The notes under the pieces: model-generated
What the model was told of the DNA's origin: nothing
Database searches by the model: none
What the model saw: only the letters and a program-made list of their open reading frames with translations
Translations under genes and position numbers: made by a program
NCBI GenBank assembly: GCA_002707155.1
Contig: PAME01000001.1
Location: 604,029 to 668,028, forward strand
Direction of reading: 5' to 3'
Origin: Crocinitomicaceae bacterium
GTDB taxonomy: Bacteria > Bacteroidota > Bacteroidia > Flavobacteriales_G > Salibacteraceae
Length of the DNA: 64,000 nt
Part shown: positions 8,011 to 11,176 of the stretch, piece after piece
How positions within the stretch are numbered: the stretch's first letter is position 1
Layout: every line of letters begins with the position of its first letter

Positions 8011-8196
8011 ATGTCACGACGAAAAATGTTAATCTACAGCAAGACTATTTTAAGAAAAGTAAGTTTTGATGCTCGATTATTTCAAAAGGAACTTGCAAAA
8101 GCGTTAAGCACTCTATCTGAACGCGAAGCAAAGGAGTTGAGACATTGGGTGCTGAGAAATTTTCATCAGCAAGCAGCTCCTGTTTTATTGGCCTAA
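8011..8196 (+). CDS. Small conserved hypothetical protein (61 aa)
   Basis: Using the ATG at 8011 rather than the upstream TTG at 7990 gives MSRRKMLIYSKTILRKVSFD at the N-terminus. I recall this pattern (short, basic, with KVSFD.RLF) in small proteins of many Bacteroidota. It is mostly helical with no signal or membrane segment. It converges on the exosortase operon, overlapping its last gene by 4 bases. Function unknown. Confidence 0.62.
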   Translation: MSRRKMLIYSKTILRKVSFDARLFQKELAKALSTLSEREAKELRHWVLRNFHQQAAPVLLA

Positions 8197-8654
8197 TTTT
8201 TTTCTTTTTTATACAGTAAAAAAGCAGGAATCAAGAAAAAGCAAGCCAGTGGCGATTGTATAAATTCAATTAACTTTCTAGCTACTCCATATCCTTCATG
8301 CTCGGCTCCAAAGGCAAACCCTAGAGCAAAAATGAGCGCTGCCAAGGAGAAAATCCCTACAAAGAAAACAATGGTAATTCTCTGATAAAGTTGTTCTTTA
8401 AAAAACAATCGAATCAAAACTAAGGACGCGTATAAGTACAATACACTAAAGAGGAGAATAAGCGTAAACTTTCCATAATAAAGGCTCCAATAGGATACAT
8501 TTTCCAGAAAAAAAAGACTTTTTGGTAGGTAGGGGTTAGTTTGTTCTTTCCATAAATAGTACAAATGTCCATTTATACTTTCGAATAAGAATTCTCTAAA
8601 GAAGCCTAAAACGAATAAACCAAAAGTAACAGCAACTATTTTAAGTTTTGACAT
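8193..8654 (-). CDS. Exosortase F system-associated membrane protein
   Basis: A 153-residue protein with four hydrophobic helices (about 7-25, 50-80, 90-115 and 130-148) and almost no soluble part. Its position, overlapping xrtF by 14 bases, and its size and topology match the small protein that accompanies XrtF in Bacteroidota. The partner's role is not established; it may help present the substrate or stabilise the sortase. It is the third gene of the PID-CTERM / xrtF operon. Confidence 0.8.
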   Translation of the reverse strand: MSKLKIVAVTFGLFVLGFFREFLFESINGHLYYLWKEQTNPYLPKSLFFLENVSYWSLYYGKFTLILLFSVLYLYASLVLIRLFFKEQLYQRITIVFFVGIFSLAALIFALGFAFGAEHEGYGVARKLIEFIQSPLACFFLIPAFLLYKKEKN

Positions 8655-9174
8655 CGCTTAATTTATTGCTCCATAGATACCAAAGATAAAATACGTAGGA
8701 GTAAACAACGATAGTAAAAGTATAGGTGTGGTTGAATTCTAAGGAATCGGGCGAGAAGTTCTGAATCATTGCGAGTGCAGTTACCCGAAGCACATTGAGG
8801 ATATGTATGGTTAGAATTCCAAGAGGAATAAACCAAAGTTTACTTTTCACTGGGCCAGGGTAGGCTAGAACGAACCCAGTAAATAGGGCAAATAATGAAA
8901 GTCCATTGCATGGGTCGCCGATCCAAACCCCATGGGAACCATCTATGCCTACTGTGCGCATCGACGCTCCATGAAGGTCGGTAGGAATCGTTGCAAAACC
9001 CATAGCTTTTAATAACCAATCGCTATTTTGAACAATAATGTTTATGATAAAAGTATCCGCAAATTTGGCTGGGTTCAGCCAAATATCGTAAAGGAAAAAC
9101 CAGGAAACGAATAGAAAAAAAGAAGTCAGGATAAACCTGACCAATTTGTTTTTGACTAACTCTTTGAAATTCAT
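8641..9174 (-). CDS. xrtF: Exosortase family protein XrtF
   Basis: An integral membrane cysteine transpeptidase-like enzyme of 177 residues with about five helices. The three residues expected of exosortases are present: Cys89 in GDPCNGLSLFALF, Arg130 in ILNVLRVTAL and His149 in FNHTYTFT. XrtF is expected to cleave and sort proteins carrying a C-terminal tripartite signal at the cytoplasmic membrane. Fifteen bases separate it from the upstream gene for a small protein with just such a tail, and it overlaps the downstream partner gene. Confidence 0.92.
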   Translation of the reverse strand: MNFKELVKNKLVRFILTSFFLFVSWFFLYDIWLNPAKFADTFIINIIVQNSDWLLKAMGFATIPTDLHGASMRTVGIDGSHGVWIGDPCNGLSLFALFTGFVLAYPGPVKSKLWFIPLGILTIHILNVLRVTALAMIQNFSPDSLEFNHTYTFTIVVYSYVFYLWYLWSNKLSDVKT

Positions 9175-9189
9175 TCAGGCAGAGCCGAA

Positions 9190-9414
9190 TTAGTTTTTTA
9201 CAGAATCGAATATTTTTTTGCCACCAAAAGCAACACCTGCTGCCATTAAAAGACTAATACCGCCATCAATTGGAACACATGGGCTGGGGATGCAACCCTG
9301 TTGTCCACCTGGTCCACCACCACCACCTGGAGGCGAGGCTAAAACATCAGTGCCAAGTGCCATCATAGCTACAAAAGAAAACGTTGCTATTAATTTGAAT
9401 GCATATTTTTTCAT
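9190..9414 (-). CDS. Small PID-CTERM-like sorting-signal protein, probable XrtF substrate
   Basis: A 74-residue precursor. Residues 1-26 form a signal peptide ending near VLASPP. Next is a Gly/Pro stretch, then two cysteines in GCIPSPC, then VPIDGG followed by a hydrophobic helix (ISLLMAAGVAFG) and a basic end with KK. The motif, membrane segment and basic tail are the three parts of an exosortase-type sorting signal. I recall this form as PID-CTERM. After loss of signal and tail the mature peptide would be only about 20-25 residues. The open frame extends to a TTG at 9444, but ATG at 9414 fits the signal peptide and the promoter. Confidence 0.82.
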   Translation of the reverse strand: MKKYAFKLIATFSFVAMMALGTDVLASPPGGGGGPGGQQGCIPSPCVPIDGGISLLMAAGVAFGGKKIFDSVKN

Positions 9415-9465: not shown

Positions 9466-9540
9466 GCAAATTATATACGTTTTACAATAGTATCCAAGCG
9501 CTAAAAATTAGGCTAGGTGACTGAAGATAGAATAAAGTTG

Positions 9541-9556
9541 TTGCGCGAAAGCGCAA
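9541..9556. other. GAAA-tetraloop hairpin
   Basis: TTGCGC-GAAA-GCGCAA is a perfect 6-bp stem closed by a GNRA-type loop. It lies between the exosortase promoter and the repeat array. It could be an RNA structural element or a chance palindrome; it has no clear terminator U-tract. Confidence 0.4.
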
Positions 9557-9717
9557 TTTGTTACTGTCGTATTCCTGTCCCTTATTCGAGGATATTTAAA
9601 TGCGTTATTACTCGTTGAGCTGCTGACCCTGAAATTTCGGGGCGCATGACTCTAGCGGGTATATAGGAGTTAGTGGTCTCCAGTTCGAGGGTAATACCTA
9701 CATTATTACTCGGTGAG

Positions 9718-9738
9718 ATGCTGAAACAAGTTCAGCAT
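9718..9738. repeat. REP-like hairpin, type ATGCTGAA
   Basis: ATGCTGAA-ACAAG-TTCAGCAT: a perfect 8-bp inverted repeat with a 5-base loop. First of five copies in the array. Confidence 0.8.
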
Positions 9739-9877
9739 GACACTAGTGGGTTAAATAGGAGTTACTGATTCCGAAGACTCGAGGCGCATGATTCTTTCTG
9801 GTTAATTGAGTTGCTGATTCCGATTTATAACCGGAAGGAATTAAAACTATTATGTTGTCCAATCCGCAGTTACCGTC

Positions 9878-9898
9878 ATCCTGAATTTAGTTCAGGAT
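9878..9898. repeat. REP-like hairpin, type ATCCTGAA
   Basis: ATCCTGAA-TTTAG-TTCAGGAT: an 8-bp inverted repeat, a one-base stem variant of the other hairpin class, with compensated pairing. The left of two copies. Confidence 0.75.
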
Positions 9899-10114
9899 CT
9901 CAGAGGTAACTATTCGAATTGTACTAGGCGGAGCTATTGTTTCCAAATTCGAGGATAATTAGCTGTATTATAACTGCCTGGATTATTATTGTATGAGTTG
10001 CTGATTCCGAGGATTCGGTGGCGCATGACTCTTTCTGGTTAATTGGAGTTGCTGATTCCGAAGATTTGGGATTTGGAGCTTAGTATTGTAGGTTCTATGT
10101 AATTTTGATTTAGA

Positions 10115-10399
10115 ATGGAGGAATACTGGGTGTACATTATTGGAAATAAAGATAGTGCAGTAGTGTATGTTGGAATGACCAACAATCTTAGACGAAGAAT
10201 AGCTGAACATAAAGAAGGCCATGGTTCGGTGTTTACAGCAAAATACAATGTCAATAGGCTTCTTTATTATGATGGATTTCAAACTGCTGGGCAGGCTATT
10301 GCTAAAGAAAAGCAACTTAAAAACTGGCATCGTGAATGGAAATTAAATTTGATAAAGGAGTTTAATCCAGAGTTTAGAGATTTATTCGAGGATATTTAG
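10115..10399 (+). CDS. Small GIY-YIG family endonuclease
   Basis: A 94-residue, single-domain GIY-YIG nuclease. The motifs are YWVYIIGN (GIY-like strand), VYVGMTNNLRRRIAEH (YIG-like strand, catalytic-type Arg and His) and AKEKQLKNWHREWK (metal-binding Glu in EKQ). Such stand-alone proteins are common in Bacteroidota and their function is unknown. The gene is isolated among non-coding repeats and has no co-directional neighbour. Its last codons (TTCGAGGATATTTAG) are part of the surrounding repeat unit. Confidence 0.85.
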   Translation: MEEYWVYIIGNKDSAVVYVGMTNNLRRRIAEHKEGHGSVFTAKYNVNRLLYYDGFQTAGQAIAKEKQLKNWHREWKLNLIKEFNPEFRDLFEDI

Positions 10400-10419
10400 T
10401 TGGATTATTACTTGGTGAG

Positions 10420-10440
10420 ATGCTGAAACAAGTACAGCAT
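10420..10440. repeat. REP-like hairpin, type ATGCTGAA (one mismatch)
   Basis: ATGCTGAA-ACAAG-TACAGCAT: one base of the right arm differs from the consensus. It lies 20 bases after the nuclease stop codon and could also act as the 3-prime end structure of that transcript. Confidence 0.7.
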
Positions 10441-10582
10441 GACACTAGCGGGTTAAATAGTAGTTGCTGATTCAGAAGACTCGGTGGCGCATGACTCTTT
10501 CTGGTTAATAATAGCTGATGATTTCAATTCTCTAACCAGAAGGAAGTAAAACTATTATGTTGTGCAATCCTCAGTTACCGTT

Positions 10583-10603
10583 ATCCTGAATTTAGTTCAG
10601 GAT
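10583..10603. repeat. REP-like hairpin, type ATCCTGAA
   Basis: ATCCTGAA-TTTAG-TTCAGGAT, identical in the stem and loop to the copy at 9878. Confidence 0.75.
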
Positions 10604-10702
10604 CTCACAGGTAACTATTTGAATTGTACTAGGCTGAGCTATTGTCTCCAAATTCGAGGATGATTAGTTGTATTATAACTGCCTGGATTATTATTGGTTG
10701 AG

Positions 10703-10724
10703 ATGCTGAAAACAAGTTCAGCAT
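10703..10724. repeat. REP-like hairpin, type ATGCTGAA
   Basis: ATGCTGAA-AACAAG-TTCAGCAT: the loop has one extra A compared with the other copies. Confidence 0.75.
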
Positions 10725-10795
10725 GACTCTGTCGGGTAAATAGGAGTTAATGGTCTCAAGTTCGAGGATATCTACTAACATTATTATTGGGTGAG

Positions 10796-10816
10796 ATGCT
10801 GAAACAAGTTCAGCAT
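10796..10816. repeat. REP-like hairpin, type ATGCTGAA
   Basis: ATGCTGAA-ACAAG-TTCAGCAT, a perfect copy. Confidence 0.8.
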
Positions 10817-10937
10817 GACTCTAGCGGGTTAATAGGAGTTGCTGATTCCGAAGACTCAGGACCGCATGACTCTTTCTGGTTAATTGGAGTTAATGGTCTC
10901 CAGTTCGAGGATAATACTAACATTATTACTTGGTGAG

Positions 10938-10958
10938 ATGCTGAAACAAGTTCAGCAT
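10938..10958. repeat. REP-like hairpin, type ATGCTGAA
   Basis: ATGCTGAA-ACAAG-TTCAGCAT, a perfect copy and the last in the array. Confidence 0.8.
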
Positions 10959-11176
10959 GACAATAGCAGGGTAATAGGAGTTGCTGATTCCGAAGACCCG
11001 GGACCGCATGATACTAGCGGGTTAAAAATAGATACTGATGCTGAAGATTCATAACGACAATAACTAGTTCTAAACTACCCTCTTTGATGCAGCGGCTTAC
11101 CTCGGAAGTGCTTTGTGATAGGGGTTACGTTAAAAGAGCAAATAGACTTCTACTTTTGCTTTTAAATAAAACAGGT

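Follow-up and report, generated by a model that had tools for sequence, protein, structure and literature searches.

A GIY-YIG nuclease as the probable partner enzyme of CGTC-tagged REPs

In a 64,000-nucleotide stretch of DNA from a Crocinitomicaceae bacterium (the window), the gene for a small GIY-YIG nuclease lies within an array of tagged hairpins. Because matching hairpins also flank the relatives of this nuclease in many phyla, it is probably the long-missing partner enzyme of the CGTC-tagged REPs, a super-family of repeats defined by Di Nocera, De Gregorio and Rocco in 2013 (PMC3733652). With a probability of about two in three, we favor reading the locus in the window as an autonomous REP element whose GIY-YIG nuclease is dedicated to CGTC REPs of its own class, acting on them and spreading them. 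Gene and repeats are physically coupled, the hairpins are paired in inverted orientation, the class of the hairpins matches the nuclease, the insertions are polymorphic, and the genome of the window contains no RAYT.

A nuclease gene within an array of directional hairpins

The nuclease gene and seven tagged hairpins occupy positions 9582-11040 of the window (Table 1). The first-pass annotation had described seven hairpins of two classes around one GIY-YIG gene, together with repeated linker modules; all seven were located and their coordinates and tags fixed, and the linker modules were found within a 303-bp block that occurs twice. Five of the hairpins have the form ATGCTGAA-(ACAAG)-TTCAGCAT, with one stem mismatch and one 6-nt loop among them, and the other two are ATCCTGAA-TTTAG-TTCAGGAT. 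An unpaired GTC opens six of the seven on the correct strand, the copy at 10580 having GTT in its place. With this tag and an unpaired tail on one strand, the hairpins are directional elements rather than plain palindromes. As single-stranded DNA, the hairpin at 9717-9741 has a predicted fold of -7.9 kcal/mol (z -3.9), and that at 9875-9899 one of -6.3 kcal/mol (z -4.4). The final codons of the nuclease gene (TTATTCGAGGATATTTA) themselves belong to a repeated module, with a second copy at 9582. Since repeated stretches include the 3' end of the nuclease gene, the array grew by duplication of such stretches.

Table 1. Features of the nuclease and hairpin locus, in window coordinates.
Feature	Position	Strand	Remarks
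Copy of the nuclease 3' end and adjoining linker (TTATTCGAGGATATTTA...)	9582..9626	+	84% identity to 10382-10426
Insert missing from the orthologous site of a sister species (L204, genome G312)	9470..11090		approximate
Array block present twice, first copy (303 bp, with two hairpins plus linker)	9702..10004	+	89.5% identity to 10404-10709
CGTC-type REP hairpin GTCATGCTGAACTTGTTTCAGCATC	9717..9741	-	exact match to GTCATNCYGAAN5TTCRGNATC
CGTC-type REP hairpin GTCATCCTGAATTTAGTTCAGGATC	9875..9899	+	exact match
Single-domain GIY-YIG nuclease, 94 aa	10115..10399	+	PF01541, 69.7 bits
Array block present twice, second copy	10404..10709	+	immediately 3' of the nuclease gene; 89.5% identity to 9702-10004
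REP hairpin GTCATGCTGTACTTGTTTCAGCATC	10419..10443	-	one stem mismatch; ~20 bp past the nuclease stop
REP hairpin GTTATCCTGAATTTAGTTCAGGATC	10580..10604	+	tag GTT
REP hairpin	10702..10727	-	loop of 6 nt
REP hairpin GTCATGCTGAACTTGTTTCAGCATC	10795..10819	-	
REP hairpin GTCATGCTGAACTTGTTTCAGCATC	10937..10961	-	

A short module, GATTCCGAAGACTCGG..GCATGA, occurs in five copies in the array (9767-9791, 10003-10028, 10469-10494, 10844-10869 and 10986-11011) and may be a decayed second hairpin class. Beside the array, on the minus strand at 8193-9414, lies a compact sorting cluster whose synteny is kept in the sister species. Its members are an XrtX exosortase (NF046081, 198.5 bits), a small PID-CTERM protein (NF046080) and an XrtX-associated membrane protein (NF046082, with a score under the cut-off of that model).

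The only intact gene among the hairpins is the 94-residue ORF of the nuclease. In an alignment of 52 members from many phyla, Y7, G20, R28, E65 and N84 are invariant, and Y18 and H32 are nearly so. Judged by these residues, the full GIY-YIG active site (the expected Tyr, Tyr, Arg, Glu and Asn) is kept, and the protein is predicted to cleave DNA. The AlphaFold2 model of the window nuclease has a pLDDT of 94.3, and in it E65 sits on a helix (residues 58-70) that is followed by a short turn and a second helix (73-83). The closest solved folds to the model are UPF0213 BH0048, Slx1, which is a branched-DNA nuclease, and the nuclease domain of UvrC, with a fold match to 1zg2. Padloc and NCBIfam searches with the nuclease returned weak matches to homing/group I intron models only, and a defense role was therefore set aside. 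A phage origin was dropped as an explanation, since phage records gave a single weak match to a relative.

The genome of the window has seven PF01541 matches, three of which are single-domain GIY-YIG genes beside hairpins. Two others (L004 and L005) are domains of long ORFs with no hairpins near, and two (L006 and L007) are weak or broken fragments; neither pair was used as evidence.

The hairpins are CGTC-tagged REPs

As described, CGTC-tagged REPs carry CGTC, TGTC or CCTC unpaired on one side of a stem of 8-9 bp, which starts with AT and closes on a loop of 4-5 nt; a short unpaired tail, mostly CCA, completes them. They frequently form dimers and are known from five phyla, Bacteroidetes among them, and they include the dRS3 repeats of Neisseria and RPE-4 and RPE-6 of Rickettsia (PMC3733652). 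Except for the tail, the window hairpins fit this super-family in tag, stem, loop and dimer habit. The sequence ahead of the stem is ...GTGTC- or CCGTC- (save in the one GTT copy), the 8-bp stem ATGCTGAA/TTCAGCAT opens with AT, and the loop has 5 nt (6 in one copy). The tail is CTC in the window and CTC or CTA in most Bacteroidota, whereas a number of the proteobacterial loci examined have CCA. The repeats are also dispersed, with 31 tagged copies (GTCATNCTGAAN5TTCAGNAT) in the genome of the window against none for a reversed control. The pattern ATGCTGAA-N3-8-TTCAGCAT finds 24 palindromic places in these 3.04 Mb, and its reversed control likewise finds none, so the hairpins greatly exceed chance expectation. 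An undescribed nuclease-linked repeat family had been proposed at first; the link to a nuclease has held, but the repeats themselves are those already described, so the novelty lies in the enzyme and not in the repeats. The paper that defined them names no partner enzyme, stating that the repeats 'apparently lack a dedicated transposase', and the word 'nuclease' occurs once in its text (PMC3733652).

The general resemblance of the locus to REPtrons could mean that these are ordinary GTAG REPs, mobilized by a RAYT encoded elsewhere in the genome. However, a search for Y1_Tnp (PF01797; RAYT/IS200) found no match in the genome of the window while it was positive in five control genomes, and the tag is GTC, not GTAG. 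Known REPs moved by a separate RAYT, an origin that would have undone the first reading of this locus, are therefore very improbable.

The nuclease is patchily distributed, being present in 87 of 149 Bacteroidia genomes, and it tends to accompany the repeats. A strong match (E <1e-24) was found in 13 of the 17 Bacteroidia genomes with at least five REPs of class A, the class of the window, and in 37 of the 132 others (p=1.6e-4). The other four of the 17 count against the favored reading. In the genus of the window, where numbers are small, two of four genomes (one of the four 83% complete) have 31 and 20 REPs together with the nuclease; the other two keep 10 and 8 REPs with no nuclease detected, which likewise counts against the favored reading.

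Insertion polymorphism suggests discrete mobile units

In a sister species (G312), the PID-CTERM gene and the rhodanese gene that border the insert lie 154 bp apart, compared with 1,762 bp in the window, and these neighboring genes are 83% identical. The 154-bp spacer contains neither REP nor nuclease. Because the spacer has diverged, the exact insertion junction is blurred in this comparison. In another genome (G306), the orthologous site holds one class-A hairpin. Elsewhere in its genome (L214), G312 itself encodes a closely related nuclease, followed by class-A hairpins. In Azospirillum lipoferum 4B, the nuclease gene and four REPs lie between sufB and sufC (L119), a junction that is uninterrupted in four other Azospirillum. 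In Sinorhizobium meliloti, a REP dimer of ~125 bp on pSymB is present in B399, absent from Rm41 and represented in M270 by a ten-base remnant, GTCACAGGAA, between flanks that are nearly identical among the three (L223, L224 and L225). This presence and absence is the pattern of discrete mobile units, although each single case could also be a deletion. The filled, empty and remnant dimer sites of S. meliloti offer a good system for mapping junctions.

Three nuclease copies (L034, L040 and L087) contain an in-frame stop codon yet keep their flanking REPs, which is what decaying copies of an element should look like.

Such observations bear on the idea that the nuclease serves the host, as a structure-specific enzyme that trims or resolves REP hairpins or cruciforms, in DNA or RNA, for maintenance or regulation and without mobilizing them, its place beside REPs being a matter of regulation. 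This would accord with its structural neighbors Slx1 and UvrC, which are repair nucleases. Yet the patchy distribution, the in-frame stops, the several copies per genome, the insertion in the suf operon and the absence from the orthologous site of the sister species are marks of a mobile-looking gene, not of a housekeeping one, and we consider a purely host-serving role quite improbable.

Nuclease and hairpins are coupled across phyla

Scanning species genomes with the nuclease gave 80 related loci from more than a dozen phyla, with Bacteroidota, Patescibacteria, Ignavibacteria, Alpha- and Gammaproteobacteria, Nitrospirota, Chloroflexota, Cyanobacteria and Omnitrophota among the groups represented. 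A relaxed hairpin detector had too high a background (5.3 vs. 1.2 per intergenic kb), so a strict one, requiring GTC and a stem that opens with AT and has 6 bp or more, was used for the statistics. Over the 80 loci, strict hairpins number 3.3-3.6 per kb at distances of up to 250 bp from the nuclease and mostly 0-0.3 per kb past 0.5 kb. They stand on both sides of 34 of the 80 nucleases; of the 884 other ORFs that these loci contain, 9 are flanked in this way (p ~3e-32). REPs are intergenic, and they might simply gather in the same intergenic regions as small orphan genes. But small ORFs (<600 bp) of these loci have hairpins on both sides in just 7 of 374 cases (p=2e-22 against the nucleases), and hairpin class covaries with nuclease residues, as set out below. 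Coincidence is refuted at the level tested, and we assign it a negligible probability.

In about one third of the loci, the strict detector finds nothing within 300 bp of the nuclease, which counts against the favored reading; degenerate tagged palindromes that the strict detector missed were seen by eye in many loci. Inverted pairs with the tags outward are the most frequent arrangement, seen in 48 of the 80 loci with the relaxed detector. Several of the nuclease reading frames terminate inside the flanking hairpin, giving protein ends such as DAETSSA and DPETSSG.

The coupling of nuclease and repeat is general across phyla, and it includes Neisseria, A. lipoferum and S. meliloti, taxa treated in the original description of the repeats (PMC3733652), each of which has the nuclease inside its own REPs. 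In Neisseria gonorrhoeae, the one nuclease match of a record with 101 dRS3 repeats falls within a dRS3 cluster (L118 2501-2776). In S. meliloti and in Rhizobium, local REPs surround the nuclease genes. The N. gonorrhoeae record is labeled a plasmid, yet it is chromosome-sized (2.17 Mb).

The first-pass annotation had guessed at REP-like elements in which a nuclease of another fold takes the place of a RAYT, a reading that hairpins scattered over the genome with no link to GIY-YIG genes would have refuted. The hairpins do occur genome-wide, but their link to the nuclease and the matching of classes hold across phyla; together with the lack of any Y1/RAYT, this coupling and class matching support that reading.

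Residues after the catalytic glutamate covary with hairpin class

Hairpins were sorted into four classes, A (NCYGAA), B (other perfect stems, for example TCCCGCG), C (TTGCGAG) and D (NCYGAG), by a scheme that was drawn up after part of the data had been seen and in which class B is a broad catch-all. The motif that follows the catalytic Glu differs among them: NWHR goes with class A, KW(K/N)R..W with B, (A/G)GSR.KK with C and GW.R.KK with D. The window nuclease has the class-A motif, in the context E65-KQLK-NWHREW-K. Mutual information with hairpin class is highest at columns 70, 72, 75 and 71. When nearest neighbors are drawn from a different phylum, their classes agree in 57 of 96 cases, compared with a mean of 31 and a maximum of 46 when labels are permuted within phyla. 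A cleaner test than this comparison is to train on Bacteroidota and predict elsewhere. A classifier trained on Bacteroidota alone, which chose columns 70, 72, 30 and 54 by itself, assigned 32 of 45 classes correctly in other phyla (permuted mean 13, maximum 22). The motif rule was also right in 27 of 28 labeled extra loci, mainly alphaproteobacterial, but as nearly all of these are class B the agreement is weak evidence.

Within the genome of the window, the three single-domain GIY-YIG genes adjoin hairpins of three different classes, each fitting the motif of its nuclease (class A in the window, TTCCCAT at L002 and CCTGAG at L003). The nucleases at L195 and L197 carry a KW(S/G)..K motif and adjoin TTTCGA-type or related hairpins, which suggests that more hairpin classes exist than the four used. 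The covariation across phyla strongly indicates that the nuclease recognizes hairpins sequence-specifically, and joint inheritance of gene and repeats, rather than recognition, could partly produce it. A small set of oligonucleotides and point mutants would suffice to test the correlation between residues and hairpins.

REPs on both flanks and matching classes would likewise be predicted if the gene were a homing-type endonuclease gene parasitizing REPs, with the REPs made by some other process and used as abundant targets. GIY-YIG is a classic homing endonuclease fold, the weak homing/group I intron matches agree with such an origin, and targeting of REPs is known for insertion sequences (PMC1525189). 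A parasite of this kind accounts for much of the same pattern. Nevertheless, the flanking REPs are intact and often inverted with tags outward, instead of one REP being split by the gene; the genome of the window has no other REP-making enzyme (Y1_Tnp); and class matching spans four repeat classes and many phyla. We regard a homing parasite as unlikely.

A proposed mechanism and its relation to known systems

If the nuclease is the dedicated partner of its REPs, it would act on the REP (tag and stem) as a single-strand hairpin or a cruciform, and, to judge from REPtrons, it probably works on the extruded hairpin. The helix-turn-helix junction right after the catalytic Glu (segment 69-76) would read the stem, and the nuclease would nick or cut at the REP. 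Through repair, annealing or recombination of the cut ends, REPs, REP dimers and the nuclease cassette would then be copied or relocated, and the single REPs and REP dimers scattered over the rest of the genome would be non-autonomous products or relics. That the nuclease cuts the hairpin, and that this cutting spreads the repeats, we infer from the coupling and class matching described above. GIY-YIG enzymes hydrolyze DNA, strand joining is not known for them, and unlike TnpA-REP they would not be expected to hold DNA covalently. Joining must therefore come from host repair, annealing or replication. Movement to non-homologous sites would need host functions, and this counts against the favored reading. 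In REPtrons, TnpA-REP both cuts and rejoins the single-strand REP (PMC8266576).

More broadly, we incline, if slightly, to the view that GIY-YIG nucleases create and spread palindromic repeats in many phyla (Neisseria dRS3 and classes A-D), with a residue code at 70-75 setting the target. This would be a second, independent REP system, and the first case of a GIY-YIG enzyme driving a mobile repeat family.

Like a REPtron (RAYT/TnpA-REP with GTAG REPs), the window locus has a small enzyme gene between inverted REPs that match it in class, numerous non-autonomous copies in other places and co-variation of enzyme and repeat. Unlike a REPtron, its enzyme is GIY-YIG instead of HUH/Y1, so that no covalent tyrosine strand transfer is expected, and its repeats are tagged GTC, not GTAG. 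On the favored reading it is a REP system with a different enzyme, and a separate class would be warranted if the nuclease proves to mobilize REPs. The nuclease shares its fold and active-site residues with UPF0213 (BH0048), other single-domain GIY-YIG proteins, Slx1 and the N-terminal domain of UvrC, and we know of no tie between any of these and REPs; unlike in UPF0213, Slx1 and UvrC, the 69-76 segment of the window family varies with the class of the neighboring hairpin. With GIY-YIG homing endonucleases of the I-TevI type it has in common the nuclease domain and, presumably, selfish spread by cleavage and repair. It differs from them in being a 94-residue protein with neither an intron nor a separate DNA-binding domain, and its apparent target is a repeated hairpin rather than one unique site.

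To the CGTC-tagged REPs as described (PMC3733652), the window adds a linked GIY-YIG nuclease with class-specific residues, and a CTC/CTA tail in Bacteroidota where the description has CCA. The repeats and the enzyme superfamily were known already, and it is their pairing and the residue correlation that appear new. No link between GIY-YIG and REPs was found in the open-access literature; bioRxiv and subscription journals lay outside this search, and prior publication is possible.

CGTC-tagged REPs occur in several phyla, and the enzyme that spreads them was left open (PMC3733652); one enzyme family is now indicated for four classes. If the favored reading holds, it accounts for where a common type of repeat, including dRS3 of Neisseria, came from, and adds to RAYTs a second enzymatic route of REP spread. 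It would also provide a compact nuclease whose target hairpin may be switchable by a handful of residues. In one Bacteroidia genome, at least six near-identical GIY-YIG ORFs lie in tandem with a period of ~457 bp (G100:C9:906061-908564).
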